Origin: Knoellia sp. S7-12
GTDB taxonomy: Bacteria; Actinomycetota; Actinomycetes; Actinomycetales; Dermatophilaceae
Direction: 5' to 3'
Length of the DNA stretch: 64,000 nucleotides
Assembly (NCBI RefSeq): GCF_040518285.1
Contig: NZ_CP155449.1
Span: 2,356,001-2,420,000, forward strand
A program made the translations under genes and the position numbers. Below the pieces are notes generated by a model. It saw only the letters and a list, made by a program, of their open reading frames with translations. It was not told the DNA's origin and made no database searches. Position 1 is the stretch's first letter; the number at the start of each line of letters is the position of its first letter. Below are positions 1-64,000 of this stretch, piece by piece.

Positions 1-429
1 CTGTGGGTCGAGGTCGATCCGCAGCTCGTCGGGGTTGTCGTTGTCAGCGGTGCGGACCGGCCATGGGTGGAAGGTCACGGTGTTCATCTGCACGGCCCAC
101 ACCGCGGCTGCGACCTCGTCGACGACGAGCTGGGCGTGGCGACGTCCGGACGGGTAGCGGCAGGAGACCGTGCTGATCCAGTCGGGCATGCCCTTCGGTG
201 GGTTCTTGGACCAAAATTCTTCACCTTCGATGCCCTCGGGGAACCGCTGCAGGGTCACCGGTCGGTCGCCGATGGCGCGCACGAGCGGTTCAGCCACAGA
301 CACCATGTATGCCGCGAGGTCACCTTTGGTGATCCCGTCACCGGGCCACATGAGCCGGTCCGGACTGGAGACCCTGACCTCACGGGTGCCGTCGGGGCCG
401 TCGATCTCCATCGTGATGGGGGACGCCAT
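1..429 (-). CDS. LigD-type polymerase (primase-polymerase) domain protein, partial
   Basis: This is the first 143 codons of a protein that runs off the left edge of the window. The translation (MASPITMEIDGPDG..., then SPDRLMWPGDGITKGDLAAYM, LQRFPEGIEG, FWSKNPPKGMP, VWAVQMNTVTFHPW) matches the polymerase domain of bacterial LigD, which adds nucleotides to ends during Ku-dependent non-homologous end joining. The visible part stops in RIDLDPQ, which carries the first metal-binding DxD motif. Whether a ligase or nuclease domain follows cannot be seen, and many actinobacteria encode the polymerase domain as a separate protein. The start codon at 429 has no Shine-Dalgarno but sits 7 nt after TAGGCT, consistent with a leaderless message. 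The family call is secure; the domain architecture is unknown. Confidence 0.85.
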   Translation of the reverse strand, partial: MASPITMEIDGPDGTREVRVSSPDRLMWPGDGITKGDLAAYMVSVAEPLVRAIGDRPVTLQRFPEGIEGEEFWSKNPPKGMPDWISTVSCRYPSGRRHAQLVVDEVAAAVWAVQMNTVTFHPWPVRTADNDNPDELRIDLDPQ

Positions 430-436
430 GAGCCGA

Positions 437-442
437 AGCCTA
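437..442 (-). promoter_or_regulatory. -10-like element for leaderless LigD-domain mRNA
   Basis: TAGGCT on the minus strand lies 7 nt upstream of the ATG at 429 with no ribosome binding site between. This fits the actinobacterial TAnnnT -10 pattern with transcription starting at or near the start codon. It is inferred from spacing only. Confidence 0.4.
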
Positions 443-602
443 GTCACCGGGCTCCGGACCAGCCGGGCGACGCCGACCGGCATGCGTACGTCACCGGGCG
501 ACTCCAAGACTTTGCCGAGTGCTTACCCAGGACTACAGACAAATTTGTGCGAACGGCATACGTTCTGGGGGTTCACTCCCTGCCCATCCCTGAAGGGTCC
601 TC

Positions 603-3044: not shown

Positions 3045-3062
3045 GTCATCTCACTGCTTGAG

Positions 3063-3100: not shown

Positions 3101-3111
3101 TTGCCTATGAC

Positions 3112-3546
3112 ATGGAGCCCACGAACCGCACGTATGCCGTCACCAAGTCCGACGAGGAGTGGCGCGCCGAGCTGTCCCCCGAGGAATACGCCGTTCTGCG
3201 CCAAGCCGGCACCGAACGCCCCTACGCGGGTGAGTACACCGACTCCAAGACGGAGGGTGTCTACTCGTGTCGCGCCTGTGGCGCCGAACTCTTCACGTCG
3301 GAGACGAAGTTCGACAGCCACTGCGGCTGGCCGTCCTTCTACAGCCCGCTGGCCGGGGACTCGGTCGAGTTCATCGAGGACGCCTCACTCCCGGGCCGCC
3401 CGCGCGTCGAGGTGCGCTGCGCCAACTGCGGCAGCCACATGGGCCACGTCTTCGAGGGCGAGGGTTATGACACCCCCACGGATCAGCGCTTCTGCATGAA
3501 CAGCATCGCCATGACCCTGCGCCCCGCCACCGAAACCCCCGCCTGA
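3112..3546 (+). CDS. msrB: Peptide-methionine (R)-S-oxide reductase MsrB
   Basis: Repairs methionine-R-sulfoxide in oxidised proteins using a thiol reductant. It has 144 residues, normal for the family. The zinc-binding CxxC pairs are C53/C56 (YSCRACG) and C103/C106 (RCANCG). The catalytic cysteine is C128 in RFCMNS, and the conserved HCGWPSF block is at 70-76. An in-frame TTG at 3058 lies before the palindromic terminator, so the ATG at 3112, just after the hairpin, is preferred. msrB and hemQ converge, with the inverted-repeat-flanked nuclease-like gene between them. In other actinobacteria msrB is often near the haem genes, so the neighbours may originally have been adjacent. Confidence 0.95.
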   Translation: MEPTNRTYAVTKSDEEWRAELSPEEYAVLRQAGTERPYAGEYTDSKTEGVYSCRACGAELFTSETKFDSHCGWPSFYSPLAGDSVEFIEDASLPGRPRVEVRCANCGSHMGHVFEGEGYDTPTDQRFCMNSIAMTLRPATETPA

Positions 3547-3656: not shown

Positions 3657-4568
3657 CTAAGCGCTCTCGGCCAACATCGCTCGGCGGACCTTCGCCGACG
3701 CCTTGCCCGGCGTCTCGAGGTCGGCCCACGTGACTCGCACAAAGATCTTGCCCTCGGCGCGCATGTCGTCTTCCCGGCGCTTCTCCTTCCATAGAACCTG
3801 TGGATCCCCGTCGGCATACTTCACCTTGCCGTCGATCTCGATGAGCACGTTCGTCCCCTCGACACCGAAGTCGGCACGACCCATGAGCGACCCGTCGGCT
3901 CGCCGCACCTCTACCTGTGAAACAACGTGTATGCCGTGTGAGCCGAATTCGACGCGAGCTCGGCTCTCTGCCACGGACTCGCACTTTCCATCGACGTGGG
4001 TCAGCATCGCGCGCGGACGGTGCGACCCCGACCAAGCGGCAACCGCGTCGACCGCCGCCTTGAGCGCGTCGAGCGTGACCAACTTCCGGTGGAGAGCCGC
4101 GTCAGCCGACACGACTCCCTGGACGATGCCGTGGTCAATGCACAGCTGAACCAGCGCCTCGGCCAGCGGCACGCAGTGACCCCACGGGCCGTCCACCCGC
4201 TCGGTTCGCAAAGGCCGGACTCGGTACGGCTTCGCGCCTGCCTGCCGTTGGATGGGTCGCAGTATTTCCGGGCGGTTGAGTTGGCACCCCCAGACAGGCA
4301 ATTCGTAGGCCAGCACCGCCGTCAAGCCAGTGAGTGCCGCGTCAGGGTAGAGCAGCCGCGCACCCTCGGCCATGTGGCTTTGCCACGGAACGGGATCGGT
4401 GTCGACAAGTGAGCGCACGGCATACAAGCCGCGTGAAGGGTGGAGCAGCACCCCCGCTCGGACCCACTCGCGCAACGCTTTGCGACCGATCCCAAGAGTG
4501 TGTGCCTGCTTCGTCGTGAACATGCCGTGCTGCGCGCTGGCGATCCGCGTGAGGTCGTCGAGTGTCAT
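3657..4568 (-). CDS. AbiEi-like wHTH protein with C-terminal PD-(D/E)xK nuclease-like domain
   Basis: The 303-residue protein has an N-terminal winged-helix domain (about 1-55, MTLDDLTRIASAQHGMFTTK..., GIGRKALREWVRAG) like that of type IV AbiEi antitoxin-family proteins. Its C-terminal part (about 195-300) resembles DUF559/Vsr-type PD-(D/E)xK nucleases, with candidate residues E197, E201, D233, E244, D246 and K248 (RADFGV, IEIDGKVKY). Such proteins are common, often multicopy, in actinobacteria and their role is not settled. No AbiEii-like toxin partner is adjacent. The ATG at 4568 is chosen because homologues begin at this wHTH; the frame stays open to 4706. The gene is alone between the two arms of a 79-bp inverted repeat. 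Function in defence or DNA processing is an inference. Confidence 0.75.
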   Translation of the reverse strand: MTLDDLTRIASAQHGMFTTKQAHTLGIGRKALREWVRAGVLLHPSRGLYAVRSLVDTDPVPWQSHMAEGARLLYPDAALTGLTAVLAYELPVWGCQLNRPEILRPIQRQAGAKPYRVRPLRTERVDGPWGHCVPLAEALVQLCIDHGIVQGVVSADAALHRKLVTLDALKAAVDAVAAWSGSHRPRAMLTHVDGKCESVAESRARVEFGSHGIHVVSQVEVRRADGSLMGRADFGVEGTNVLIEIDGKVKYADGDPQVLWKEKRREDDMRAEGKIFVRVTWADLETPGKASAKVRRAMLAESA

Positions 4569-5513: not shown

Positions 5514-6938
5514 TCATTCTCCCGCGCGCGCCGCGGCCGTCCTCAGGTGGGTCGCTGTCGCCTCCGCTGCGGCGTGCGCCGACGCGATGACGGCCGGGAT
5601 ACCAATGCCCTGGTATGCCGCGCCAGCCACTTCGAGACCGGCCACCCCTGCGATCGCTTCGGTCACTCGCGCGATCCGATCGACGTGCCCGACGGTGTAC
5701 TGCGGCAGTCCGCCACCCCATCGTTGGACGTGGCTGTCGACGAGGGTGAGTGGTGGCCCGCCGGCGGCCTCGCTGATCTCGCGCACCGCGAGGGCCACGA
5801 GCTCTGCGTCGTCACGCTGCAGGCTCGCCGTCTCGCCCGCTCGCCCCACAGACGCCCGCACGTATGCCGTGTCGCCACCTTCCGCTGCGAGCCACCCCCA
5901 CTTGGCCGAGCTGAAGGTGCTGGCCTTGATGCCCCGGCCCTCGACGGGGGGCACGAGGAAGCCTGAGCCCTCCCACGACGCGACCTCGGCTGTGGGAACG
6001 GCCAGGGTGATGACGGCAACCGACGCCATCTCGACCCCGCCGAGTGCAGCGCCCGCTGGGGGTGCGATCGGCGACAGCAGCCGCGAGGCCGCTGGCGGCG
6101 GCACGGCCACGATGACCGCGTCCGCCTCCAGCCGACGCGGCTGCGTCGTCGGACCACTGAGGACCGACCAGCCGGTCGCTGTCCGCTCGATGCCGCGGAC
6201 GATCGTGTTCGACTCGATGACTCCCCCGCGTTGCTCGACGTCGGCGGCGAGGAGCTCAGACAGTCGACCCACGCCACCGGACAGCCCGATGAACGGTGGC
6301 CGCGCCGCACCCGACTGGGTGTCGACGACCGGTGGCGCCAAGAGAGATCCACGCGCCTGGGCGATCGCCCAGACCGCCGGCATCGTGGCGCGCAGTGACA
6401 GCGCACGGGAGTGACCGGCATACACCCCGCCGAGCATAGGCTCCACGAGACGGTCGACGACAGCGGAACCCAGTCGGCCACCGACGTAGTCGGCGACGGA
6501 GACGTCAGCGCCCACATCGGGCGCGTCGGCCTCGGCGAGCATTCGCGTCTCCTCGTCGGCCGTCAGGAGCCCGGCGACCACCGAGTCAGCGAACGGAACG
6601 CCAATTCGGGTGCGCGGCAACGGATGCAGCTCACCGCGGGACCACACGCGTGCCGACGTCGTGGCGGGTGTGACGATGTCCGCCGCGTCTGCAAGCTCGC
6701 TCACGAGATCGACGGCCTCGGGACGCACGGCCAGCATCGCCTCGGCCCCCACGTCGACGAGGTGCCCGCCGATCTCCTCGCGACGGACCTTGCCACCCAC
6801 GCGGTCGGACGCATCGAGGAGGACGACGTGGGCGCCCGGCAGCGAGACGAGGACGTCACGCGCCGCCGCGAGCCCCGCGATCCCACCGCCAATGACGACG
6901 ACGGAACGACGGGAAGGGCGTGCGGCTTCGCTCACCAC
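5514..6938 (-). CDS. cgoX: Coproporphyrinogen III oxidase (HemY/HemG-type, CgoX)
   Basis: FAD-dependent enzyme of 474 residues. In actinobacteria it oxidises coproporphyrinogen III to coproporphyrin III before iron insertion; many databases still call it protoporphyrinogen oxidase HemG/HemY. The N-terminal dinucleotide-binding motif is [14 protein letters not shown] (about 13-26), followed by an acidic [11 protein letters not shown] strand. The C-terminal FAD-contact region contains [18 protein letters not shown]. The start is GTG at 6938; another GTG follows directly. It lies in an operon with hemQ. Substrate preference for coproporphyrinogen is inferred from the linked hemQ. Confidence 0.92.
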
Positions 6939-8021: not shown

Positions 8022-9038
8022 GTGCTCGTGCACGACCTCGACGATCCTGGTGAGGACGTCGGGGTCGGCATGCGGCGGGACTCCGTGACCGAGGTTGAAG
8101 ATGTGGCCTGGCGCCTGGCGCCCTTCGTCCACGATCGCGCGGACGCGGGCTTCGAGAACCTCCCACGGGGCACCGAGGAGAGCCGGATCGAGGTTGCCCT
8201 GCACGGCATACCCATCACCGATGCGACTGACCGCGTCGGTGAGTGACAGTCGGTAGTCGACGCCGACGACCTCGGCCCCGGCCTCACCCATGAGTTCGAG
8301 AAGTTCACCGGTGCCCACGCCGAAGTGGATGCGCGGCACACCGAGGTCTGCGACCGCGGCGAGCGCTGTGGCCGAGTGCTTCTGGACGTATGCCGTGTAG
8401 TCCGCTCGCGAGAGCGAGCCGACCCAGGAGTCGAAGAGTTGGATCGCGCTGGCTCCGGCCTCGACCTGGACACGGAGGAAGGCTCCGGAGATCTGGGCAA
8501 GGCGTGCGCTGAGGTCGTTCCAGAGCTGCGGGTCGCCATGCATGAGCGCCTTGGTCTTCTCATGCGTGCGCGACGGCCCGCCCTCGACGAGGTAGGACGC
8601 GAGGGTGAACGGTGCGCCGGCGAAGCCGATGAGCGGGGTCGACCCGAGCTCACTGACAAGTCGCGAGACCGACTCGGTGATGTCGGGGATGGCGTCAGCG
8701 GTGAGGTCCGGAAGTCGGTCGAGGTCGGCGCGGGTGCGAAACGGTGCGGGCACGACGGGGCCGGTGCCCGGGACGATGTCGAGGTCGACGCCCACGGCCG
8801 CCAGGGGCACCACGATGTCCGAGAAGAAGATCGCTGCATCGACATTGTGGCGGCGCACGGGCTGGAGCGTGATCTCGGTGACGAGGTCGGGCATGCGACA
8901 GGCTTCGAGCATGGCCGTGCCCTCACGCAGCGCGCGGTATTCGGGCAGCGACCGACCGGCCTGACGCATGAACCACACGGGGGTGTGCGGGACGGGCTGG
9001 CGGGTTGCGGCAAGGACGAGCGGGCTGTCGGAGATCAC
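8010..9038 (-). CDS. hemE: Uroporphyrinogen decarboxylase
   Basis: Decarboxylates the four acetate side chains of uroporphyrinogen III to coproporphyrinogen III, the branch metabolite used by CgoX, HemH and HemQ. The 342 residues match the usual family length. The signature WFMRQAGRSLPEYR is at 22-35 and the catalytic aspartate is D74 in FFSDIVVP. The C-terminal FNLGHGVPP motif is present. The start is GTG at 9038, with GAGAGG about 8 nt upstream. A very stable hairpin at 9057-9125 lies just before the ribosome binding site. Confidence 0.96.
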   Translation of the reverse strand: MISDSPLVLAATRQPVPHTPVWFMRQAGRSLPEYRALREGTAMLEACRMPDLVTEITLQPVRRHNVDAAIFFSDIVVPLAAVGVDLDIVPGTGPVVPAPFRTRADLDRLPDLTADAIPDITESVSRLVSELGSTPLIGFAGAPFTLASYLVEGGPSRTHEKTKALMHGDPQLWNDLSARLAQISGAFLRVQVEAGASAIQLFDSWVGSLSRADYTAYVQKHSATALAAVADLGVPRIHFGVGTGELLELMGEAGAEVVGVDYRLSLTDAVSRIGDGYAVQGNLDPALLGAPWEVLEARVRAIVDEGRQAPGHIFNLGHGVPPHADPDVLTRIVEVVHEHSAR

Positions 9039-9982: not shown

Positions 9983-11761
9983 CTATGAGTGAGTGGCCGC
10001 CAGTGGGTTGGTGATCCGGCCGGCGAACGCGAGTGCGCCCACCGGATCCGCGAGGTCGACCATCTGCTGGTTGTTGCGCAGTTGCAGCCGGTTGAGGCAC
10101 GAGAGGTCGAAGTCGGCGGCTCGCAGGTCGAGGGCAGTCAACCGGGCGGCGAGCTCGGGGTGCGCGTCCTCGTAGTCACGAAGCACGTCTCGCGCCACTG
10201 CCCAGAAGTCCTCGGCATCGATCGTGCCGGCCTCGTCGAGCACCGCAGCGAGGAACCTCAGGAAGCAGTCGACGACATCGGTGAGGATCGACAGGGCCTG
10301 CATCGACGGTTCGGCCTCGACCCGCACACGCTCCACAGCAGCCGGCAGCGCGGCCTCGGTGTCGAAGATCGCCACCTCCTCGCCGATGTCCTTCATGATG
10401 ACGCGTGCGACGACGCCGTCCTTGAGCACGAGGATGAGGTTCTCGCCATGGGGCATGAAGACCAGGTGGTGTGCGACGAGGCAGTGGGTCACCGGGACGA
10501 GATAGGCCTCGAGATAGCGGCGCACCCACTCCTCGGGCGTGAGTCCGCTGGTGTCGACCAGGGCTGCGGCGAACGACTCCCCCACCTCGTCCACGTGCAG
10601 CAGGCTGGCCATCGTCGCCAGCGTCTCGCCCTCACGGAGCAGGGGCACCGGGCTCTCACGCCAGAGGCCGGCGAGCATCTTGAGGTGGGGGTCGCCCCTG
10701 TCAGCCACGGCGTCGTAGGTGGGGCTGCGGTAGCCCACCGAAGCGTGCTCGCGCAGGACGTCGAAACCGCTGGACCGCAACGTCTCGTCCCCGCGAACGA
10801 GGTCGGCGACATGGTCGTTGATCGCCGGGGTCACTTCCATGTATGCCGCGGACAGACCGCGCAGGAAGCCCATGTTGAGGACCGACAGGGCTGTCTTGAC
10901 ATAGCTGCGCTGGGGGGCGGACGTGTTGAAGAACGTGCGGATCGACTGCTGTGGTCGGTGCGCGTCATCGCCGTGACCCAGCAGGACCAGATCGCCTCGG
11001 ACGATGTCTGCGGCGAAGGTCGTCGTCACTCGGTTGTCCCACTGCCAGGGGTGGAGCGGCAGGAGGTGGACGTCGTCGAGTGTCAGGCCCCGATCGGCGA
11101 GGACGCTCTCGAAGCGGCCCCGGGTCTCGACCGAGAACTCCTCCGCCAGCAGGCGCTCCCGCGTCATACCCCCGCCGACGGCGAAGGTGGCACGTTCGCG
11201 GCGGGCAGCCAGCCAGACGAGTTTCACGTCGGGTGCGGCCTCCGGCGCATAGCGCTCGTACTCGCTCGCATCAAAGCCGATCCGTCCCGAGTTGGCGACG
11301 AAGCACGGGTGCCCCTCGCGCATGGACGATTCGACGAGCTGGAAGTCGGCGCCGACGAGCTCACTGCTCTTGGGTTGGTGCACGGACCAGCGATAGGCCT
11401 GGGCACTGAGAGTCGCCGACACCTCCTCGAGGAGCAGTGGCAGGACCTTGGGGCCGAGGTCGAGGTCGGCCCGCAGGTCAACGAACAGCTCGAGTGCGTC
11501 GAGGTCACGCACCTCGCCGTTGACGGTTCGCACGATCGACTCCGGTGCGATGAGCCAGTGGTCGAGCGGCAGGACACGAGCCGAGAACTCGTATGCCGCA
11601 CCGGAACTCGCGCGGACGGCATACTTTCCGCGGTCAAGGGCGATGGGCTCCAGCATGCGCTCGTGGGCGAACTCGGCCAGCGCCTTGCGTACGAGCCAGC
11701 GTGTCGCGCGGGCCCAGTGCCTGGGCTGCAGGTGCTGCGGAGAATGGGGTGAGGTGGTCAT
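9983..11761 (-). CDS. desD: NIS siderophore synthetase, IucA/IucC family (DesD-like)
   Basis: NRPS-independent siderophore synthetase of 592 residues. DesD condenses and cyclises N-hydroxy-N-succinyl (or acetyl) cadaverine units into desferrioxamines using ATP. The IucA/IucC domain spans roughly 120-370 (EGHPCFVANSGRIGFD, HPWQWDN, QQSIRTFFN) and a FhuF-like region follows (HNLILVL-type motif as HGENLILVLKDG, KDIGEEV). The ATG at 11761 overlaps the upstream stop as ATGA; an open frame to 11875 is not needed. It follows the acyltransferase in the order expected for des clusters. Confidence 0.92.
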   Translation of the reverse strand: MTTSPHSPQHLQPRHWARATRWLVRKALAEFAHERMLEPIALDRGKYAVRASSGAAYEFSARVLPLDHWLIAPESIVRTVNGEVRDLDALELFVDLRADLDLGPKVLPLLLEEVSATLSAQAYRWSVHQPKSSELVGADFQLVESSMREGHPCFVANSGRIGFDASEYERYAPEAAPDVKLVWLAARRERATFAVGGGMTRERLLAEEFSVETRGRFESVLADRGLTLDDVHLLPLHPWQWDNRVTTTFAADIVRGDLVLLGHGDDAHRPQQSIRTFFNTSAPQRSYVKTALSVLNMGFLRGLSAAYMEVTPAINDHVADLVRGDETLRSSGFDVLREHASVGYRSPTYDAVADRGDPHLKMLAGLWRESPVPLLREGETLATMASLLHVDEVGESFAAALVDTSGLTPEEWVRRYLEAYLVPVTHCLVAHHLVFMPHGENLILVLKDGVVARVIMKDIGEEVAIFDTEAALPAAVERVRVEAEPSMQALSILTDVVDCFLRFLAAVLDEAGTIDAEDFWAVARDVLRDYEDAHPELAARLTALDLRAADFDLSCLNRLQLRNNQQMVDLADPVGALAFAGRITNPLAATHS

Positions 11762-12300: not shown

Positions 12301-13607
12301 GCCGACACCTCCTGTCGAAGCGGTGAGCGCAACGGCGCGATCTCGGGCAGGCCGAACTCCTGCTGCGCGATGCGCGTCTCGATCGGATAGACCTCGCGTC
12401 CCGTGATGCCGCGGACGATCCAGGAGTTCCGGTATGCCGCCATGCCGAGATCCGGTGCAGCGAACCCGTGCGTGTGGAGCTCGGCGTTCTGCACCCAGAT
12501 CGGCGGACCCGCCACGTCGACGCGGTAGTCGCGGGTGACGTCGAAGCGGCCCTTCTCGTCCCAGCGGATGCGATCAGCGACGGGCGCGAGGAAGGCCGGC
12601 ACCTCGTGCTTGTAGCCGGTGGCGAGAACGAGGCCATCGGTCTCGATGTCGCGCTCCTCACCGGTGTCGGCGTGCTTCACCGTGAGTCGGTAGGTCCCGT
12701 CCGGCTCCTGAATCGAGCCAGTCACAGCCGTATTCGTGAAGAGACGGGCGTTCGACGGTCCGTCGACGCCTGCGGCATAGAGGGCGTCATAGATCTCGTC
12801 GACGAAGTCACCCGAGATCCCCTTGTAGAGCTGGGCCTGAGACGCGATGAGGGACTCGCGTCGCTCCGGCGGCAGGGCGTGGATGTGGTCGACGTACTCC
12901 GGAGAGGTCATCTCGAGCGTGAGTTTGGTGTACTCGAGCGGGAAGAACCGCGGCGACCTCGTGAGCCAGATGATCTCGCGCTGGCGGCCATCGTCGGCCG
13001 CAAGGAGGTCCCGGAAGATCTCGGCAGCACTCTGGCCGCTGCCCACGACGACGACTCGTCGGCACTCGAGCAGCTGCGCCCTGCGCTGCAGGTAGGTCGA
13101 GTTGTGCAGCTCGGCCGGCAGCCCGGCGCAGCTGTCCGGGATGTGCGGTGGGGTGCCGGTTCCCACGACGAGGGAGCGAGCGGCATACGTCTCCTCGCCG
13201 TCAGGCGTCGACGCTCGCACGACGTAGGCGAGCTCATCCTCGTCAAAGGTCACCGACGTCACCCGACGCGAGAGGCGAACGCTCTCGAGACGCTCGGAGA
13301 CCCAACGGCAGTAGGCGTCGAACTCGCGGCGCAGCGGATAGAACGACTCACGGATGTAAAACGGATAGAGCCTCCCGGTCTCCTTGAGGTGCTGGAGGAA
13401 CGAGTGGCGCGACGTCGGGTCGGCCATCGTCACGAGGTCCGACATGAAGGGCGTCTGCAGCCGGCTGTCCGGCAGAAGCATCCCCGGGTGCCAGGCGATC
13501 TCGTCGCGCGCCTCGAGGAAGACCTCATCCACGTCGTCGATGGGGTCGAGCAGCGCAGCGAGTCCGAGGTTGAAGGGGCCGAGTCCGATCCCGATGACGT
13601 CGTGCAT
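12297..13607 (-). CDS. desB: Cadaverine/lysine N-monooxygenase (DesB-like)
   Basis: FAD- and NADPH-dependent N-hydroxylase of 436 residues; DesB hydroxylates cadaverine on one amine. The FAD-binding GIGLGPFNLGLAAL is at 5-18. The NADPH-binding VVVGSGQSAAEIF is near 190 and LVLATGYKHEVP is in the C-terminal third. These mark the lysine/ornithine N-monooxygenase family. The start ATG overlaps the desA stop as TGATG. Substrate assignment follows from the linked decarboxylase. Confidence 0.93.
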   Translation of the reverse strand: MHDVIGIGLGPFNLGLAALLDPIDDVDEVFLEARDEIAWHPGMLLPDSRLQTPFMSDLVTMADPTSRHSFLQHLKETGRLYPFYIRESFYPLRREFDAYCRWVSERLESVRLSRRVTSVTFDEDELAYVVRASTPDGEETYAARSLVVGTGTPPHIPDSCAGLPAELHNSTYLQRRAQLLECRRVVVVGSGQSAAEIFRDLLAADDGRQREIIWLTRSPRFFPLEYTKLTLEMTSPEYVDHIHALPPERRESLIASQAQLYKGISGDFVDEIYDALYAAGVDGPSNARLFTNTAVTGSIQEPDGTYRLTVKHADTGEERDIETDGLVLATGYKHEVPAFLAPVADRIRWDEKGRFDVTRDYRVDVAGPPIWVQNAELHTHGFAAPDLGMAAYRNSWIVRGITGREVYPIETRIAQQEFGLPEIAPLRSPLRQEVSA

Positions 13608-15154: not shown

Positions 15155-15225
15155 TCAAATCGGACCATGAGGGCCATGCCCGCACCACCCCGGCGTGGCC
15201 TCACCCCTAACCCAGCCATGCGGCA

Positions 15226-15231
15226 TACCCT
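15226..15231 (+). promoter_or_regulatory. -10-like element for DUF3000 gene, inside a CGGCATAC site
   Basis: TACCCT lies 6 nt before the GTG at 15238 with no Shine-Dalgarno, suggesting a leaderless mRNA. It overlaps a CGGCATAC octamer (15221-15228), so here the repeated motif forms part of a promoter. Confidence 0.4.
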
Positions 15232-18036: not shown

Positions 18037-18096
18037 CTCACCGTGCCACAGATCTCCGACAGGTGATGGCTGTCACGGCTGACCGGCATACCCGGG

Positions 18097-21498: not shown

Positions 21499-21543
21499 GT
21501 GAGCGGGCGGCATACCTGATCTGCAGGTATGCCGTCCGCTCAC
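21499..21543. terminator. Hairpin terminator built from an inverted GTATGCCG pair
   Basis: Arms 21499-21518 and 21524-21543 pair at 19 of 20 positions around a 5-nt loop, followed by TTT. CGGCATAC (21508-21515) and GTATGCCG (21527-21534) form the core of the stem. It lies 12 nt after the fadB stop. Inverted copies of a genome-wide octamer serving as a terminator recall DNA-uptake-sequence terminators in Neisseria and Pasteurellaceae. Confidence 0.85.
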
Positions 21544-28178: not shown

Positions 28179-28295
28179 GTTCCCCTCCTGGGGTGTGTAT
28201 GCCGTGCCCGGCGGTGAAGTTTCTTTGGTGCAGTTCTGGTGTGGCTGGGTGTTCAGGGAGTGGCTGGGTCAATCCGGGAGTGGCCAGGGATCTGG

Positions 28296-35505: not shown

Positions 35506-35620
35506 TTGGCTCCCCTTCACACGACGGGTCGCCGGATGCCACCCCATGCGTTCGACCGTATGCCGGTCACGAAGGATCGAGCATGGGTTCCGGCACCACA
35601 GAGCCCGTGTGCTTGTGGTG

Positions 35621-44977: not shown

Positions 44978-47791
<2,814 letters not shown>

Positions 47792-50073: not shown

Positions 50074-52079
50074 CCTTCGCCGCGTCGGACGTCGCCCGCC
50101 ACGGGGCCGTCCATCCGTTCCTCGACACCTGCGGAGGACACCAGCTGCCACGGCACGCTCGCGACCATCACGCCCGGGGTGAAGAGAAGTCGCCCCTTGA
50201 GCCGGAGCGCGCTCTGGTTGTGCAGCGCCTGCTCCCACCAGTGACCCAGGACGTACTCGGGGATGTAGACCACGACGATGTCTCGGGGGTTGCCTGACCG
50301 GATGGACTTCACGTAGTCGATGACGGGACGAGTCACTTCGCGGTAGGGGCTGTCGAGGGCCTTGAGCGGCATCGGGATGTCGCGGCGATCCCACTCGGCC
50401 TGCAGCGCCTTGGTCTCCTCGGCGTCGACGTCGACGGTCAGCGCCTCGAGGATGGAGGGGCGGGTGGCCCGGGCATAGGCGAGTGCTCGCAGCGTCGGCT
50501 TGTGGATCTTGGAGACGAGCACGATGGCGTGCACTCTCGACGGGAGGAGTTGCTGCTTGGTGTCGCCCTCTTCGACGCGCAGCTCGTCGCGGACCCGGTC
50601 ATAGTGGCGCCTGACCCGCATCATCAGGAAGTAGAGGATGGCCATCGCAGCGATGGCGAAGCCGGCGCCGTGCAGGAACTTCGTGGCGAGGACGACGATG
50701 AGGACCAGGCCACACATGACCGCGCCGATGCCGTTGATGATGCGACTGCGGTGCATGCGGGCCCGGGTCCGTGGGTTTCGCTCCAGGGTCAGGTGGCGGT
50801 TCCAGTGCCGCACCATCCCGATCTGGCTCAGGGTGAAGGAGACGAAGACACCAACGATGTAGAGCTGGATGAGCTTGGTGACCTGCGCGTCGTAGAGCGC
50901 AATGAGCGCGGCCGCCGCTCCGGCGAGGATGAGGATGCCGTTGGAGAAGGCGAGCCGGTCACCGCGGGTGTGGAGCTGGCGCGGCAGGAAGCCGTCCTTG
51001 GCCAGGATCGAGCCGAGCACCGGGAAGCCGTTGAACGCCGTGTTGGCCGCGAGGAAGAGGATGAGGCCGGTGACGACGGAGACGAGGATGACACCGGGCT
51101 GGAAGCCGTCGAAGACCGCCTTGGCGACCTGTCCCATGACGGTGTCCTGGACGTGCCCCTCGCCCAGGGGCTGGCCGTCCTTGAGCAGCTGGGTCTCGGG
51201 GTCCTCGGCGATCTTGACGCCAGTCCACCGAGCGAGCGCGACCATCGAGACAAGCATCGTGATGGCGACGGCGCCCATGAGGAGCAGCGTCGTTGCGGCA
51301 TTGCGGCTCTTGGGCTTCTGGAAGGCCGGGACGCCGTTGGATATCGCCTCCACACCGGTGAGGGCGGCACAGCCCGACGAGAAGGCACGCAGCAGCAGGA
51401 AGGCCATCGCGGCCGTGCCGAGGGCCCCCATACCGGGCTCGGGAGCAAGCTCGTATGCCGCGCTCTCGGCGGACGGCAGCGTCCCGGTCGCTTCCCGGAA
51501 GAAGCCGACGATTGCCATCCCGATGATCGTCACCATGAAGAGGTAGGTCGGGACCGCGAAGGCCTTGCCGGACTCGCGGACACCGCGCAGGTTCATGGCG
51601 GTGAGCAGGACGACGAGCGTCACGGCGGTGGCCACCTCGTGACCGCGCAGGAACGTGAACGCCGACGCGGCGTTCTGCACGCCCGCCGAGACCGAGACCG
51701 CGACGGTGAGGACGTAGTCGACCAGGAGCGCGCTGCCCACCGTGAGACCGGCCTTGGGCCCGAGGTTGACGCTCGCCACCTCGTAGTCGCCGCCACCGGA
51801 CGGATAGGCGTGGACGTTCTGGCGATAGCTCAGGACGACGACGGCCATGACGACCACGACGCCGAGGGCGATCTCCCACGAGTGGGTTGCGGCGAGTGCG
51901 CCACCGGCAAGTCCAAGGGTGAGCAGGATCTCGTCGGGCGCGTAGGCCACGGACGACAGGGCGTCGCTGGCAAAGACCGGGAGAGCCAGGCGTTTGGGGA
52001 GCAGGGTTTCGCCCAGCCGGTCCGAACGCATGGCCCGCCCGAGGATGACGCGTTTGACCACGCGACCTGAGGAACTCAC
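50070..52079 (-). CDS. APC-superfamily permease, probable KimA-like potassium transporter
   Basis: A membrane transporter of about 669 residues: roughly 12 helices (about 30-455) followed by a soluble C-terminal domain of about 200 residues. N-terminal FASDALSSVAYAPDEILLTLGLAGG and YRQNVHAYPSGGGDYEVAS are typical of the KUP/KimA-like APC branch. The C-terminal domain (RVHAIVLVSKIHKPTLRALAYA, RDIVVVYIPEYVLGHWWEQ) resembles the cytosolic domain of KimA. Divergent TrkA-type genes support potassium transport. GTG at 52079 is preferred because TAGAGT lies 7 nt upstream; an ATG at 52097 is possible. It is the counterpart of Rv2690c. Confidence 0.85.
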   Translation of the reverse strand: MSSSGRVVKRVILGRAMRSDRLGETLLPKRLALPVFASDALSSVAYAPDEILLTLGLAGGALAATHSWEIALGVVVVMAVVVLSYRQNVHAYPSGGGDYEVASVNLGPKAGLTVGSALLVDYVLTVAVSVSAGVQNAASAFTFLRGHEVATAVTLVVLLTAMNLRGVRESGKAFAVPTYLFMVTIIGMAIVGFFREATGTLPSAESAAYELAPEPGMGALGTAAMAFLLLRAFSSGCAALTGVEAISNGVPAFQKPKSRNAATTLLLMGAVAITMLVSMVALARWTGVKIAEDPETQLLKDGQPLGEGHVQDTVMGQVAKAVFDGFQPGVILVSVVTGLILFLAANTAFNGFPVLGSILAKDGFLPRQLHTRGDRLAFSNGILILAGAAAALIALYDAQVTKLIQLYIVGVFVSFTLSQIGMVRHWNRHLTLERNPRTRARMHRSRIINGIGAVMCGLVLIVVLATKFLHGAGFAIAAMAILYFLMMRVRRHYDRVRDELRVEEGDTKQQLLPSRVHAIVLVSKIHKPTLRALAYARATRPSILEALTVDVDAEETKALQAEWDRRDIPMPLKALDSPYREVTRPVIDYVKSIRSGNPRDIVVVYIPEYVLGHWWEQALHNQSALRLKGRLLFTPGVMVASVPWQLVSSAGVEERMDGPVAGDVRRGEG

Positions 52080-52825: not shown

Positions 52826-53512
52826 ATGCGCGTCGTCATCGCAGGAGCAGGGAGCGTCGGTCGTTCCATCGCCCGCGAGCTCATCCGCAACGGACACCAG
52901 CTCCTCCTCATCGACCGTGACGCCGACGGAGAGCGGGTCGCCAAGGTCGCCGATGCGGCGTGGCTGCAGGCCGATGCGTGTGAGCTCAGTGCGCTCACCG
53001 AGGCCGGAGTGGCGGAGTGCGACGTTGTCGTCGCGGCCACCGGCGACGACAAGGCCAACCTGGTCGTGTCGCTCCTCGCCAAGACGGAGTTCGGTGTCCC
53101 GCGCACCGTGGCTCGCGTCAACAACCCCAAGAACGAGTGGATGTTCGACGACGCGTGGGGCGTCGATGTCGCCGTCTCGACGCCGCGGCTCATGACCGCC
53201 CTCATCGAGGAAGCCGTCTCGGTCGGTGACCTTGTGCGCATCTTCGAGTTCCAGCAGGGTCACGCGGCCATGGTCGAGATGACGTTGCCCGAAGGCAGTC
53301 CGTATGCCGGCACGCGGGTCGGCGACATCGCCTTCCCTCCCGACACGGTCCTGACGGCCATCATTCGCGGCGGGGCGCCGATCGCGCCCAGCCGGGATGA
53401 CGCGCTCGAGCCGCTCGATGAGCTGCTCTTCATCACGACGACCGACGGCGAGTCGGACCTCGAGTCAATGCTCAGTCCGGGGATCCGCCAGAAGCGTCAG
53501 CTCGACGACTGA
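52826..53512 (+). CDS. ceoC: TrkA-family potassium uptake regulatory protein (CeoC-like)
   Basis: A 228-residue second RCK protein. It starts MRVVIAGAGSVGRSIARELIRNGHQLLLIDRD and has a complete RCK_N domain, then an RCK_C domain from about 140 (MVEMTLPEGSPYAGTRVGDIAFP). It lies 18 nt after ceoB and probably forms a heteromeric regulatory ring with it. A GTATGCCG site encodes PYAG. Its 3' end overlaps the convergent DUF3159 gene by 16 bp. Confidence 0.92.
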   Translation: MRVVIAGAGSVGRSIARELIRNGHQLLLIDRDADGERVAKVADAAWLQADACELSALTEAGVAECDVVVAATGDDKANLVVSLLAKTEFGVPRTVARVNNPKNEWMFDDAWGVDVAVSTPRLMTALIEEAVSVGDLVRIFEFQQGHAAMVEMTLPEGSPYAGTRVGDIAFPPDTVLTAIIRGGAPIAPSRDDALEPLDELLFITTTDGESDLESMLSPGIRQKRQLDD

Positions 53513-55366: not shown

Positions 55367-55857
55367 GGTGTGGTCACTTTCTCGATGATGTCTGGGGGCG
55401 TCGTGCCGAAGCCTCCGGTGGATCCATGTCCAGTGTCACCCCGAACGCTGTCCGGGAGCGAGTCTGCCTCGCGGAAGTCCGCATGGAGATACTCCTGCAC
55501 GACGATCTGGGCGATGCGGTCGCCCACCGCGACCGTGAACGACTCGCGCGGGTCAAGGTTGACCAGGTTCACGAGGATCTCGCCGCGATAGCCGGAATCG
55601 ACCGTTCCGGGTGCGTTGACGACGGTGATCCCGTGCCGTGCCGCGAGCCCCGACCTCGGGTGGACGAGCCCGACGGTTCCCGGGGGAAGCGCGATTGCGA
55701 TGCCGGTGGGCACCAGAGCACGCTCACCTGGAGCCAAGGTCACCGACGCCGCCGCGGTCAGATCCGCACCGGCGTCACCGTCAGAGGCGTATGCCGGGAT
55801 ACGCGCCTGCGGGGAGAGCCGTCGGAAGGCAACCGGAATGCGAGAAGGGCCAGTCAC
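55363..55857 (-). CDS. dut: dUTP diphosphatase
   Basis: A 164-residue trimeric dUTPase that hydrolyses dUTP to dUMP, preventing uracil incorporation and feeding dTMP synthesis. All five motifs are visible: ASDGDAGADL, PRSGLAARHG, GTVDSGYRGEI (catalytic Asp), GDRIAQIVVQ and a C-terminal RGDTGHGSTGGFGTT. The start is GTG at 55857, with TAGGGT 8 nt upstream and no clear Shine-Dalgarno. The DUF3093 gene often found next to dut is absent. Confidence 0.95.
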   Translation of the reverse strand: MTGPSRIPVAFRRLSPQARIPAYASDGDAGADLTAAASVTLAPGERALVPTGIAIALPPGTVGLVHPRSGLAARHGITVVNAPGTVDSGYRGEILVNLVNLDPRESFTVAVGDRIAQIVVQEYLHADFREADSLPDSVRGDTGHGSTGGFGTTPPDIIEKVTTP

Positions 55858-56377: not shown

Positions 56378-57244
56378 CTAGCTCATCAGGTGGCGCCGGG
56401 TGCCCTCTTCGACGAGGTTCGAGAACACCGATTCCAGCCCCGCGGTGCAGGCCCACGTGAGCCCTTCGCCCGGTCCGTCGAGCCCCCCGACGACGGCACC
56501 GGCCTCGGTGGCGATGAGCCACCCGGCAGCCAGGTCCCACGGGTTGAGACCGGTTTCGTAGTAGGCGTCGATCAGGCCGGCTCCCACGGCGCAGAGGTCG
56601 AGGGCAGCGCTGCCGATCCGGCGGATGTCTCGGATCTGCGGAAGGACCTCGAGGACGAGGCGACCCTGGCGCTCTCGGCGCTGCGCGGCATACCCGAAGC
56701 CTGTTCCGACGAGCGCCTGGCCGAGCTCGGTGCAAGTCGTCGGCGTCAGCTCGCGCTGCACCCCGTCTGTGCGAATGACGCGGGACCCGCCGCCCACGCG
56801 AGCGAGGTAGAGCTCGTCGGTGACCGGGTTGTAGACGGCGCCCACGAAGGGGCGCCACGCGCCGGCTGTCGTCGGGTCGCCGACAACGGCGGCGACGGAC
56901 ACGGCATACGCGGGTATGCCGTAGAGATAGTTGACCGTGCCGTCGATCGGGTCGATGACCCACGTGATGCCGGAGGTGCCCGTCGCTCCCCCGCTCTCCT
57001 CGCCGAGAACGGCGTCATCGGGACGCGCCTCGCGAAGGCGGGCGATGAGGTGGTCCTGGGAACGCTGGTCCATCACTGTCACGACATCGGTCGCACTCGA
57101 CTTCGTGGTCGCGACCTCGACGGCATCCGGACGCTCGTCGACGACGAGACGACCGGCGGAGCGCGCGACGTCGGCCGCGAGCGTCTCGAGCTCCGCGGCG
57201 AGCGCGTCGTCGGGAAGGGCGAGGCCTCGTGCAGTCGATGACAT
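56378..57244 (-). CDS. Inositol monophosphatase family protein (SuhB-like)
   Basis: A 288-residue Mg-dependent, Li-sensitive phosphatase-family protein. Motif A is WVIDPIDGTVNYLYG, the upstream acidic residues are in GEES, and motif B is LNPWDLAAGWLIATEAGA. It may dephosphorylate inositol-1-phosphate, supporting mycothiol or phosphatidylinositol synthesis, or histidinol phosphate. It is the Rv2701c (suhB) positional equivalent. ATG at 57244 is 1 nt after the hemH stop. Two GTATGCCG-type sites 12 nt apart lie inside it (56902 and 56914). Confidence 0.9.
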   Translation of the reverse strand: MSSTARGLALPDDALAAELETLAADVARSAGRLVVDERPDAVEVATTKSSATDVVTVMDQRSQDHLIARLREARPDDAVLGEESGGATGTSGITWVIDPIDGTVNYLYGIPAYAVSVAAVVGDPTTAGAWRPFVGAVYNPVTDELYLARVGGGSRVIRTDGVQRELTPTTCTELGQALVGTGFGYAAQRRERQGRLVLEVLPQIRDIRRIGSAALDLCAVGAGLIDAYYETGLNPWDLAAGWLIATEAGAVVGGLDGPGEGLTWACTAGLESVFSNLVEEGTRRHLMS

Positions 57245-60581: not shown

Positions 60582-61871
60582 CTAGAACGACTTCGGGGCG
60601 ACATGGAACATCGGCACGGGCACTTCGTCGTCGGTGAGCGAACCGTGCAGCCCGATCAGGGCCAACAGCTCCGGCCGTTGATAGCGGGAGTCGACGACAG
60701 CGTGGGCGTCGCGCATGGCCACGACGACGTCCCCGATGCGGGCGAGGTGCTCGTCACGCACCGACCCGAACAGCCCTGTGCCGACGGCTTCGTCACGCGA
60801 GAACACCCAGGCGAAATCGCCGATGCGAGCCCGCCACGTGGCCAGCACGTCCTCGGCAGCGCCCGCCTCGCAGTAGAGCTGGGGTGCGCGCGCCTCTCCC
60901 CCCGTGTGGCGCACCCCGGCCGCGAGCTCGGCGTCATGGGCGACGTCGATCCGGTTGGCCATGGGCACGTCCACCATGCCGTGGTCGGCAGTGATCGTGA
61001 GCGAGCAGTCCGTCGGTAGCCCGTCAGCGAGGCGTGCGAGGGCCCGGTCGATGGTCTCGAGCTCGTCTCCCCACTGCCACGACTCGCAGCCGTGAACGTG
61101 TCCAACCTTGTCGAGATCTCCCCAGTAGAGATAGGTCAGGGTCGCCGGTTGCGAGCGCGCGTGGGCCAGGGTCGCGTCGACGCGCGCGTCGAGCTCCTTC
61201 GCTGCGACGAACCGTCCACCCCGGAGTGCAGCGCGGGTGAGCCCTGACCCGTCGAAGAAGGCCGGCCCTGTGCGCATGACGTCGATCCCGGCCGCAGCAG
61301 CCTTCTCGAACCACGTCGCTCGCGGCTGCCACCGCTCGGGGACAGGTCCGTCCTCCCACGACAGTTCGTTGAGGAGTCGGTCCTCACCCGGAACGAGCAC
61401 TTCGTAGCCGAGCATGCCGTGTGTCCCGGGCACGAGTCCCGTGCCGAACGACCCCATGGAGGACGCCGTCGTCGACGGGAAGCCGCTGACCACCCGCCGT
61501 CCGTCAGCGAAGAGGGAACGCAGCCAGGGAGCATGTCCACCGCGGCGCCGCAGGAGGTCGTAGCCCAGTCCGTCGACCAGCACCACCACGGCACTGCGCG
61601 CCGGCGGGAGGGCCCATCGCGGCGCACCGCCCCCGGGGACACCGATCGACGCGGCGATCGAGGGGAGGACGTCGCTGAGGCCACCCTCGGCGTAGGCCGG
61701 CGCCGGAACTCCCGGCAGTTTCCGAGCCGCCGGAGCGGTCAAAGCCTTCGGAGCCGGGTATGCCGTTGCGCGGCCCGTGCGTGAGTGGCGCGGCTTGCGT
61801 GGTTTGCGGGGTTCCCCCTGCAGTTCACCCTGTGGCTCGTGGGCCCCGGGTTCGGTCTCGGGTTCGGTCAC
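60582..61871 (-). CDS. Alkaline phosphatase-superfamily nucleotide pyrophosphatase/phosphodiesterase
   Basis: A 429-residue protein of the type I phosphodiesterase/nucleotide pyrophosphatase group. After a basic Pro-rich N-terminus (about 1-70) come metal motif VVVLVDGLGYDLLRRRG, the nucleophile region GFPSTTASSMGSFGTG (Thr), and later metal residues in YWGDLDKVGHVHGCES and TADHGMVDVP. No signal peptide is evident, so it is probably cytosolic. GTG at 61871 overlaps the DUF5998 stop as GTGA. The substrate is unknown. Confidence 0.9.
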   Translation of the reverse strand: MTEPETEPGAHEPQGELQGEPRKPRKPRHSRTGRATAYPAPKALTAPAARKLPGVPAPAYAEGGLSDVLPSIAASIGVPGGGAPRWALPPARSAVVVLVDGLGYDLLRRRGGHAPWLRSLFADGRRVVSGFPSTTASSMGSFGTGLVPGTHGMLGYEVLVPGEDRLLNELSWEDGPVPERWQPRATWFEKAAAAGIDVMRTGPAFFDGSGLTRAALRGGRFVAAKELDARVDATLAHARSQPATLTYLYWGDLDKVGHVHGCESWQWGDELETIDRALARLADGLPTDCSLTITADHGMVDVPMANRIDVAHDAELAAGVRHTGGEARAPQLYCEAGAAEDVLATWRARIGDFAWVFSRDEAVGTGLFGSVRDEHLARIGDVVVAMRDAHAVVDSRYQRPELLALIGLHGSLTDDEVPVPMFHVAPKSF

Positions 61872-62527: not shown

Positions 62528-62574
62528 GTCGCCATTCTGCCGCACTGCCCGAGCGCTGCCTGCCTGTCCACAGG

Positions 62575-62640
62575 TCAGCGCCTGTCGTCGCACCCCTCAG
62601 CGCCCGTCGTTGCACGGGTCAGCGCCGATCCGTCCACGCG
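62575..62640. repeat. Three tandem 22-nt units
   Basis: Units starting TCAGCGCC begin at 62575, 62597 and 62619. The first two are nearly identical (TCAGCGCC, Y, GTCGT, Y, GCAC) and the third diverges in its second half. They lie in the 114-nt gap between DUF5998 and the acyl-CoA synthetase gene, partly symmetrical, and may form alternative hairpins. Confidence 0.65.
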
Positions 62641-62641
62641 C

Positions 62642-64000
62642 TCAGGTGAGCGAGCGCCGTCCCGGATCGGTGCGCCGGGCCATCGGCGCGACGGTCACCT
62701 CGGCTCCGAGGACCTCCACCCCGCCGGGGTGGGCGTTGACCGGGTTGAGGCGCAGGGACGCGATCTCGGGCATGTCGTCGCTGATGACCGACACGCGGGC
62801 GATGAGGTCGGCCAAGGCGGCACGGTGCACCGGCGTGGAACCCCGGTGACCGTGGAGGACGGGAGCGGCCTTGACCGAGGAGATCAGCTCGGAGACCGCG
62901 ACATCGGTGAGCGGCGGGATGCGGTGGGCGATGTCGTCGAGGAGTTCGGTGGGCAACCCGGCGACACCAAAGCTGACGACCGGCCCGAAGAGCGGGTCCT
63001 CATCCGCGGTGACGACGCACGCCACCCCGGGTGTCGCCATCCGTTGCACTTCGAGCTGTCCGGCGGCCAGCGGCGAAAGGCGCTCGTTCAACGACGCCCA
63101 GGCCTCACGCACTGACTGCTCCGTCCCGAGGTCGACGCGCACGCCGGTCACCCCTCCCTGGTGGCGCAGCATCGGTGCCGTGGACTTGAGCACGACGGGG
63201 TAGCCGATGTCCTCGGCAGCGTCGACGGCCTCTTCGACTGTCGCCGCCCGACGTGAGGGCCAGACCTCGATCCCGTATGCCGTGAGCAGTGCGGAGGTCT
63301 CGTCGGGGTCCAGTCGGCGTCCTTCCGGACTGACCGACAGAACGGTCTGGACGACGTCCTCCGCGACGCGTCGGTTGATGCCAGCTGGTGCCACGGGAAC
63401 GCCGTGGTCCTTGTTGCGCCACTCGGCGTACTTCGTCGCCTTGGCGAGCGCGTATGCCGCGTCCTCCGGCATCGCATAGATCGGGATGGCCTGACCGGTG
63501 CCGCCCTCGTACATGTGGGTGGACGCGTCGACGCCGCGCATGCCGAGGAAGGTTGCGACACAGGTCTTTTCAGAGCCACGGGCGGCCGCACGAACAGCCT
63601 CGGTGACGTCTTCGTCGTGGGCGACGATCGGTGGGATGAAGCACGTGAGCACAGAGTCGACGTCGGGGTCGGTGAACGCCTTGGTGAGTGCCTCCCGGAA
63701 CTGCTCGGCCGTGGCCTCGGACGGGAGGTTCACGGGTCCGTGGGTGACGGTGAGCCCGCGACCCGCCACGGCGCCGGCCGAGAGGGCACCCAACGCCGAG
63801 GAGTTGCCGATGATCGCGACCCGTCGACCGGCGGGCAAGGGCTGGTGGACGACGAGCTGGGCCACGTCGAACATCTGGTGCACGTTGGAGACGCGGATGC
63901 AGCCGGCTTGGCGCAGCATCGCCCCGAAGACCGCCGGGCGGACCTTGGTGCGTCGCACGCGGTGCCCGGGGGGCGTGCCATAGGCCGAGACACCGGACTG
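62642..64000 (-). CDS. ADP-forming acyl-CoA synthetase / protein acetyltransferase-like, C-terminal part
   Basis: The open frame extends to the right edge and codes for the C-terminal part of a larger protein. Visible parts are a succinyl-CoA ligase-like domain (VAIIGNSSALGALSAGAVAGRGL, LGMRGVDASTHMYEGGTGQAIPIY) and an ATP-grasp domain (ALLTAYGIEVWPSRRAATVEEAVDAAEDIGYPVVLKSTAP, GVRVDLGTEQSVREAW, VTADEDPLFGPVVSFG). Actinobacterial homologues often carry an N-terminal CoA-binding and GNAT domain and acetylate proteins; whether those exist here is outside the window. Three GTATGCCG-type codon pairs are visible nearby. Confidence 0.85.
   Translation of the reverse strand, partial: QSGVSAYGTPPGHRVRRTKVRPAVFGAMLRQAGCIRVSNVHQMFDVAQLVVHQPLPAGRRVAIIGNSSALGALSAGAVAGRGLTVTHGPVNLPSEATAEQFREALTKAFTDPDVDSVLTCFIPPIVAHDEDVTEAVRAAARGSEKTCVATFLGMRGVDASTHMYEGGTGQAIPIYAMPEDAAYALAKATKYAEWRNKDHGVPVAPAGINRRVAEDVVQTVLSVSPEGRRLDPDETSALLTAYGIEVWPSRRAATVEEAVDAAEDIGYPVVLKSTAPMLRHQGGVTGVRVDLGTEQSVREAWASLNERLSPLAAGQLEVQRMATPGVACVVTADEDPLFGPVVSFGVAGLPTELLDDIAHRIPPLTDVAVSELISSVKAAPVLHGHRGSTPVHRAALADLIARVSVISDDMPEIASLRLNPVNAHPGGVEVLGAEVTVAPMARRTDPGRRSLT

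Follow-up and report, generated by a model that had tools for sequence, protein, structure and literature searches.

The octamer GTATGCCG, usually followed by T, is strongly over-represented in a stretch of 64,000 nucleotides from the chromosome of Knoellia sp. S7-12 (contig NZ_CP155449.1, positions 2,356,001 to 2,420,000 of the forward strand; hereafter the window, 64 kb) and all along this chromosome. It is a signal carried by the DNA itself, and it marks the family of Knoellia (Intrasporangiaceae, order Micrococcales, in the NCBI classification), some genera of which use variants of it that differ by one base. Most of its testable anatomy, i.e., its density, strand symmetry, hairpins, intergenic enrichment, conservation, dialects and the occurrence of two dialects in one genome, matches that of DNA uptake sequences. 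It is probably (we put the probability at about 0.62) a word for DNA uptake or self-recognition during natural transformation.

Abundance of the word in the window and the chromosome

The window carries 47 copies of GTATGCCG (29 on the forward and 18 on the reverse strand, listed below), the first of which starts at position 307 and the last of which occupies 63452-63459, against 2.15 expected under a third-order Markov model. The sequence-only reading had counted by hand about 47 copies for two or three expected, and its count was exact. No octamer of the window scores higher. The suspicion that the excess is genome-wide is also borne out: the chromosome (a single contig of 4,163,720 bases) has 2805 copies, 1406 forward and 1399 reverse, whereas the reversed word, taken as a control, has 33 and 46 on the two strands (79 in total). 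In a 464-kb sample consisting of the window and 20 stretches of 20 kb from across the chromosome, GTATGCCG is again the top octamer: it has 292 copies where a fourth-order model, which soaks up part of its excess, predicts 47.6. Every sampled 20-kb stretch contains the word, at 0.15-1.05 copies per kb. The over-representation is therefore confirmed.

Octamers one base away from GTATGCCG occur in the window about as often as expected, and only GTAGGCCG (34 copies versus 16) passes the threshold used in 400 kb of chromosome. Around 289 copies (8 bases on each side), the sole signal above 0.25 bit is the T that follows GTATGCCG (0.38 bit); the second base on the 3' side is mostly G (0.13 bit). 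The extended form GTATGCCGTG has 16 copies in the window for 0.1 expected and accounts for 78 of the 292 copies of the 464-kb sample. Otherwise, the flanks of the copies are mostly unrelated to each other within the genome. No AT-rich flanking segment stood out within 20 bases of the copies in the window or within 8 bases in the larger sample, and an Rfam scan of the window returned nothing at the gathering threshold.

A signal of the DNA rather than of proteins or codons

Three types of data establish that GTATGCCG is a DNA-level signal, as the sequence-only reading had proposed when it placed selection at the level of the DNA word instead of the protein: codon permutation, intergenic excess and conservation. 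When synonymous codons are permuted within genes (100 permutations), the 214 coding copies of the 464-kb sample fall to a mean of 24 and a maximum of 36, i.e., shuffling strips about nine tenths of them. The use of TAT points the same way. Tyrosine in a G-Tyr-GCC-G context is written TAT in 98 of 105 cases, against 0-38% in eleven other contexts examined; TAT becomes the rule only when all eight bases match. The objection that the word might simply reflect preferred codon pairs thus fails. The DNA left non-coding by the gene prediction (13.2% of the 464 kb) contains 78 of the 292 copies, twice the share expected (p 7e-10), and the intergenic DNA of a 475-kb sample without the window has 68 copies for 1.4 expected under a first-order model. 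A codon artefact is ruled out by the permutations together with this intergenic excess.

The comparison with sister genomes that the earlier reading had called for gives a concordant result. Of 59 copies aligned with other Knoellia loci, six in number, 45 have an identical counterpart, versus 3553 of 14623 (24%) control octamers, the controls being other octamers with five G or C and the six loci being non-independent through common ancestry.

Orientation and inverted pairs

The two strands of the chromosome carry the word equally, and replication direction has no influence on its orientation. The contig starts with a protein read by eye as DnaA, followed by one read as DnaN; with dnaA at position 1, the 292 sampled copies are distributed as 68 forward and 64 reverse on the right replichore and 89 and 71 on the left one (p 0.56). 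The check for strand and replichore skew that had been suggested for this word therefore reveals neither.

The copies frequently form inverted pairs. In the chromosome, pairs separated by a gap of 3-23 bases comprise 55 head-in and 33 head-out inverted pairs for 9.9 expected each (Poisson), a 4.4-fold excess, whereas direct pairs with the same gap are depleted (5 versus 19.8). Pairs starting at most 60 bases apart in the 464-kb sample are not far above expectation as a whole (16 versus 10.8); 13 of these 16 are inverted, and 9 of the inverted ones are intergenic. Four hairpins from this genome and one from another genome of the family (G023) fold into nearly uninterrupted stems of -23 to -41 kcal/mol (as RNA). 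One of them was already noticed in the window as an inverted pair forming a terminator, and it does fold into a hairpin: the copies at 21508 and 21527 make an uninterrupted stem of 17 pairs (-33.6 kcal/mol as RNA), which starts 21 bases downstream of reading frame 19373-21487(+). Over 18 genomes taken together, 1183 inverted pairs are found for 347 expected and 208 direct pairs for 347, the sizes of the other genomes being rounded in these expectations. Direct pairs are below expectation in the eight genomes of the genus other than G002.

Two genomes show additional regularities. Among the 39 head-out pairs of G023, 21 share a length of exactly 26 bases (with a gap of 10) and 37 have lengths of 2 modulo 3. 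This points to a favoured dyad spacing together with a reading-frame constraint, and perhaps to a dimeric reader. In G023 and G028 (32 and 64 head-in pairs in all, respectively), similar hairpins of the GTATGCCGCTGAGCCGGCTCAGCGGCATAC type also recur by the dozen; they may be dispersed terminator elements that incorporate the word.

Distribution and dialects in the family

The family was sampled with 36 genomes from 28 genera, nine of them from Knoellia (handles of the form G020 designate individual genomes). The assignment to Knoellia agrees with the protein encoded at 603-3044, whose best matches lie in Knoellia genomes (66-81% identity, against 64% or less for those that follow). GTATGCCG is abundant in all nine Knoellia genomes (1971-3277 copies in the eight besides that of the window) and in some of the 27 further genera; elsewhere it is replaced by one-letter variants or missing. 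In 22 genomes from other families of the order, it has 2-167 copies, 0.5-3.6 times the count of the reversed word.

The dialects were searched by ranking all octamers in 20-475 kb per genome for the 28 genera, coding counts being compared with codon shuffling. The variant GGATGCCG characterizes G033 (coding 74 versus 13.5, intergenic 37 versus 1.8), G024 (coding 37 versus 8, intergenic 9 versus 0.8) and, weakly, G009 (coding 24 versus 8, intergenic 1 versus 0.8). G020 uses GAATGCCG (coding 33 versus 3.6, intergenic 23 versus 0.5) and also keeps GTATGCCG (1025 copies versus 101 of the reversed word), so that two dialects coexist in one genome. G027 uses GTATGCGG (18 versus 2.8), G011 and G034 use GTATGNCG, with all four bases at position six, and G030 shows GTACGMCG (43 and 27 versus 12.9 and 11.6), a signal that is less clear because its codons are common ones. 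In whole genomes, GRATGCCG (G and A forms) has 3647 copies in G020, 3916 in G024, 3984 in G033 and 1353 in G009, and 351-1328 in the remaining 32 genomes. By our own division, which counts G009 and G030 as bearers, 18 of the 28 genera have a word; it is weak or missing in the ten others (G010, G014, judged on 20 kb only, G016, G017, G018, G021, G022, G026, G031 and G035). GTACGCCG gives a weak signal in G018, G026 and G031 that may be codon-related.

On a tree of ComEC (a single gene, 36 genomes), the dialect labels require 11 changes, whereas shuffled labels require 17.3 on average and 11 or fewer in none of 200 trials; this clustering is partly due to one genus being represented by nine close genomes, and 13 of the 33 inner branches are well supported. 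G024 and G033 (both GGATGCCG) are sisters, as are G011 and G034 (both GTATGNCG), and GGATGCCG needs two changes. Between genomes of different dialects (G009 and G020 versus Knoellia, G020 versus G029, G033 versus G028 and G023, G024 versus G028), only 1 of 25 word sites in aligned DNA coincides with the word of the other genome (1 of 20 in the opposite direction), against 9 of 18 between genomes of the same dialect; these numbers are small and divergence differs among the pairs. Since so few sites coincide, the dialects seem to have been rebuilt at new places rather than by conversion of the old sites.

A second genome-wide word, GGACGCCG, related to the first or not, occurs in some Propionibacteriaceae and not in others. 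In three loci, it has 22-28 coding copies versus 6.4-9.2 after codon shuffling, and in a Nigerium locus 12 versus 5.7 (loci L010, L013, L019 and L027). The whole genomes contain 3829 copies in G058 (a metagenome-assembled genome, MAG, labelled Propionibacterium), 4376 and 5498 in two Propioniciclava (G059 and G060) and 3573 in Nigerium (G065). Granulicoccus, Tessaracoccus, Raineyella and a MAG, which we take to be relatives from the Propionibacteriaceae, have 584-1388 copies, and the 13 other genomes asked have up to 1976.

A possible uptake language in Gram-positive bacteria

Among the candidate roles listed in the sequence-only reading (DNA uptake sequence, Chi-like recombination signal, methylation or nucleoid motif), the first fits best, because the strands are equal, replication skew is lacking, inverted pairs form hairpins, dialects differ at the level of genera and competence genes are present; Chi acting through RecBCD is disfavoured. 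Taken as a whole, the process could be viewed as follows. A sequence-specific competence receptor, in the simplest case a Tad/Flp pilin or a ComEA accessory, would prefer fragments that bear the word. ComEC would pass one strand into the cell, and homologous recombination would write this strand into the chromosome. Since alleles with the word would enter the cell and recombine at a higher rate, the word would build up, by molecular drive, in intergenic DNA and at all sites where the encoded protein can accommodate it. A shift of the receptor preference by one base would cause a new dialect to accumulate while the old copies decay.

The presence of the perhaps related GGACGCCG in some Propionibacteriaceae (Propioniciclava and Nigerium) suggests that such a language may reach beyond the family. 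Whether these words form an independent uptake language of Gram-positive Actinomycetota, in which a monoderm competence system of the Tad-pilus type would read an eight-base word with one-base dialects (GTATGCCG, GTATGNCG, GGATGCCG, GAATGCCG, GTATGCGG and perhaps GTACGMCG) and some genera would have lost it, is a proposal for which the odds seem about even. To our knowledge, uptake words are known only from Pasteurellaceae and Neisseriaceae, both Gram-negative. If the proposal is true, these bacteria provide a third case, unrelated to both and with dialects of its own, in which the origin of such words by molecular drive, the sequence-reading part of a Gram-positive machine and the isolation of lineages by dialects become testable; the word would also serve experimenters as a tag in the transformation of bacteria for which genetic tools are scarce. 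Should the function turn out to be another one, a hyper-abundant word that pairs into hairpins and forms dialects in 18 of 28 genera would still need explaining. No description of GTATGCCG or of an uptake sequence in Actinomycetota was found among the matches listed from the open-licence literature.

The likeness to the neisserial DNA uptake sequence (DUS), which is read by ComP, concerns the thousands of copies on both strands, the terminator-like hairpins, the conserved sites and the intergenic enrichment. GTATGCCGTG and the 12-base DUS have the heptamer ATGCCGT in common, probably by chance. One-base dialects that cluster on the tree and the coexistence of two dialects in one genome (G020 here) also have a counterpart, since the available part of PMC3630211 describes eight DUS dialects congruent with phylogeny and a Simonsiella with two dialects and dyads. 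Inverted DUS pairs acting as terminators and a high conservation of DUS are reported in the part of PMC2397512 at hand, and a 2025 review names Neisseria, in the portion available, as the exception that recognizes an uptake sequence (PMC12236230). The differences are the Gram-positive high-GC host, the genus devoid of type IVa pilus (T4a) markers, the length of 8 bases versus 10-12, and the receptor and uptake, which here are only proposed. As T4a markers are missing, the resemblance would be one of working and not membership in the Neisseria system. The uptake signal sequence of Pasteurellaceae has a similar density, is symmetric between strands and is likewise non-palindromic; its sequence is unrelated, and GTATGCCG lacks AT-rich flanks in the scanned range.

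Competence genes and the case against uptake

ComEC and Tad-type genes, which the earlier reading had proposed to look for, are present, and so is ComEA. In Knoellia sp. S7-12, the neighbour of comEC encodes ComEA, and there are three TadA-like ATPases, one of them above the NCBIfam cut-off and two near T2SSF and TadE-like proteins. In Micrococcus luteus, natural transformation depends on Flp (Tad) pili (PMC4322843, in the part available). Wording on uptake specificity occurs there only in unrelated senses, and is lacking from the available part of PMC8467076.

Several results weigh against an uptake function. ComEC is found in all 36 genomes of the family, with or without the word, and does not discriminate between them. 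ComEA was read in 24 of 33 comEC-region loci, word-bearing and word-poor alike, the nine misses of this motif filter on short loci not being shown absences. By eye, none of the Tad-type ATPases tracks the word across the family. The markers PilT and PilM of T4a pili were not found in Knoellia in a search of the 36 family genomes; PilT exceeds its cut-off in one of them (G032), with strong split matches in G013, and PilM in two (G032 and G027). Since ComEC is universal and ComEA occurs in word-poor genera, no competence gene tested tracks the word; competence genes (ComEC, ComEA and the T4a markers) are thus rejected as a discriminator between word-bearing and word-poor genera. If competence is ancestral and only the preference of the receptor varies, the genes would indeed fail to track the word, and an origin through methylation also fits this pattern. 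No receptor was found, and the literature matches listed include no report of competence in Knoellia.

Some features of the word itself are also unfavourable. Inverted pairs show no excess in G012 (9 and 20 versus 14.5 each) and G019 (14 and 12 versus 13.4 each) and only a weak one in G011 (12 and 10 versus 7.2) and G034 (8 and 6 versus 3.7). In G002, from the same genus as the window, close direct pairs form head-to-tail clusters (86 versus 31). The copies are not evenly spaced, their spacing being no more regular than random (coefficient of variation 1.09 versus 1.01). Site sharing within a dialect is good in two pairs of genera (G015/Knoellia, 4 of 6; G023/G028, 3 of 3) and poor in two (G011/G034, 2 of 8; G033/G024, 0 of 1), G029/Knoellia giving 0 of 0. 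Finally, head-in inverted pairs of GGACGCCG reach 1.25-1.33-fold the expectation, almost no excess; this second word thus scarcely shares the hairpins of the first, and its case is weaker.

Alternative explanations

The main rival is maintenance linked to methylation, similar to that of the cyanobacterial highly iterated palindrome 1 (HIP1): an orphan DNA methyltransferase would modify the site, a methyl-linked repair or function would create and keep it, and the specificity would change by genus. Some types of enzymes can methylate non-palindromic words, and the failure of the tested competence genes to divide word-bearing from word-less genera agrees with this explanation. Hairpin-forming inverted pairs are not known to us for HIP1, and single-base variants of GTATGCCG stay near background in the Knoellia genome, apart from GTAGGCCG. 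According to the available part of PMC4390886, HIP1 is a similarly abundant octamer, swapped in some lineages for lineage-specific replacement words together with the matching methyltransferase; HIP1 and its replacements are palindromic and methyltransferase-tied, whereas GTATGCCG differs from its reverse complement and occurs in pairs of copies that form hairpins. On balance, this explanation appears unlikely.

Less probable still is a role akin to that of Chi, in which the word would turn a recombination nuclease (AdnAB, AddAB or RecBCD) from destruction to repair. As generally described for RecBCD and AddAB, Chi is also short, non-palindromic, over-represented and variable among lineages. 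However, GTATGCCG has a larger excess and no strand polarity with respect to replication, and its hairpin pairs have no Chi role that we know of. A search of the nine Knoellia genomes did not find RecC, the subunit that reads Chi; this protein occurs in 10 of the 36 family genomes, and in 6 of the 10 word-poor versus 4 of the 18 word-bearing genera (p 0.10). Because of the failure to find RecC in the genus and of the lack of replichore skew, Chi acting through RecBCD is rejected.

A binding word for a nucleoid or chromosome-segregation protein, which would explain that all sampled 20-kb stretches are covered in genic and intergenic DNA, is marginally less probable again: words of the FtsK-orienting polar sequence (KOPS) type are strongly strand-polar by replichore and GTATGCCG is not, and for an essential chromosome protein it would be unusual to have dialects that differ by genus, or a word that is weak or lacking in 10 of 28 genera. 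It is hardly credible that the word has no function and simply results from codon use, amino-acid content or some mutational or repeat process, for although 177 of the 214 coding copies fall in two codon phases and G002 and G023 have repeat-like clusters or near-identical hairpins, the codon permutations, the intergenic excess, the conservation and the mostly unrelated flanks in the Knoellia genome all speak against it.

Uneven distribution along the chromosome

The most codon-biased quarter of the genes (of at least 450 bases) has 0.20 copies per kb and the other three quarters 0.56-0.73, a comparison that is partly circular because the copies slightly lower the score of their own gene. As GTATGCCG forces the codons TAT, GCA or ATA, strongly codon-selected genes probably resist the word, and codon bias explains the uneven distribution at least partly. 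The sequence-only reading had reported that acnA and the 57-61 kb stretch are devoid of copies; there is indeed none within the aconitase-type gene 44978-47791 or between 56922 and 61757, nor within the reading frame 19373-21487. Resistance through codon bias suffices to explain why the aconitase-type gene and others like it have no copies. Two sparse sampled stretches, at 0.8 and 3.4 Mb, contain by eye sugar-uptake and copper-type genes and, judged from this sequence reading, look like accessory islands.

Copies in the window

All entries are exact matches to GTATGCCG, given with their strand and assigned to genes by the predicted gene map.

307..314 (+), in gene 1-429(-); identical in 6/6 other aligned Knoellia loci
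554..561 (-), intergenic; identical in 6/6 aligned Knoellia loci
3132..3139 (+), in gene 3097-3546(+), read TYAV
3812..3819 (-), in gene 3657-3884(-)
3929..3936 (+), intergenic by gene map; identical in 4/4 aligned Knoellia loci
4418..4425 (-), intergenic by gene map; identical in 4/4 aligned Knoellia loci
5613..5620 (+), in gene 5514-6938(-); identical in only 1/6 aligned Knoellia loci
5862..5869 (+), in gene 5514-6938(-); identical in 6/6 aligned Knoellia loci
6416..6423 (-), in gene 5514-6938(-)
8204..8211 (-), in gene 8010-9038(-)
8388..8395 (+), in gene 8010-9038(-)
10841..10848 (+), in IucA/IucC-family gene 9983-11761(-)
11591..11598 (+), in gene 9983-11761(-), first of an inverted pair
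11617..11624 (-), in gene 9983-11761(-), second of the inverted pair with 11591
12432..12439 (+), in gene 12297-13607(-)
13181..13188 (-), in gene 12297-13607(-)
15221..15228 (-), intergenic
15366..15373 (+), intergenic, touching the predicted start of gene 15373-15825(+)
17625..17632 (+), in gene 17146-17757(-), read DGIP (rare Ile codon ATA)
18084..18091 (-), intergenic by gene map
21508..21515 (-), first half of the hairpin 3' of frame 19373-21487(+)
21527..21534 (+), second half of the hairpin with 21508
24424..24431 (+), in gene 24260-25009(-), read HGIP
24649..24656 (-), in gene 24260-25009(-)
28197..28204 (+), intergenic
29026..29033 (+), in gene 28996-29757(-)
31562..31569 (-), in GAF/PucR-type regulator gene 29965-31830(+)
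33066..33073 (+), in gene 32878-33801(-), read HGIR
35558..35565 (+), intergenic by gene map
36355..36362 (-), in gene 35621-37489(-)
37080..37087 (+), in gene 35621-37489(-), read RHTV (uncommon frame)
37786..37793 (+), 5' part of NIR_SIR reading frame 37645-39885, assignment unsure
37869..37876 (-), 5' part of NIR_SIR reading frame 37645-39885, assignment unsure
42342..42349 (+), in gene 41557-42927(+)
43745..43752 (-), in gene 42915-44135(+), read HGIP
48214..48221 (-), in gene 47849-48757(-)
48728..48735 (+), in gene 47849-48757(-)
48859..48866 (+), in gene 48754-50073(-)
51453..51460 (+), in gene 50070-52061(-)
53302..53309 (+), in gene 52826-53512(+)
55789..55796 (+), intergenic by gene map
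56686..56693 (-), in gene 56378-57244(-)
56902..56909 (-), in gene 56378-57244(-), first of an inverted pair
56914..56921 (+), in gene 56378-57244(-), second of the inverted pair with 56902
61758..61765 (+), intergenic by gene map
63275..63282 (+), in gene 62642-64000(-)
63452..63459 (+), in gene 62642-64000(-)

Other over-represented words

Two further words are over-represented in the sample of the Knoellia sp. S7-12 genome, CTATGAC (63 versus 19) and CTCCCCC (118 versus 54), the latter in some relatives as well. In the sample loci of G031 (L131-L133, L209, L268 and L269), runs of C and GTACGCC (118 versus 31) are over-represented.

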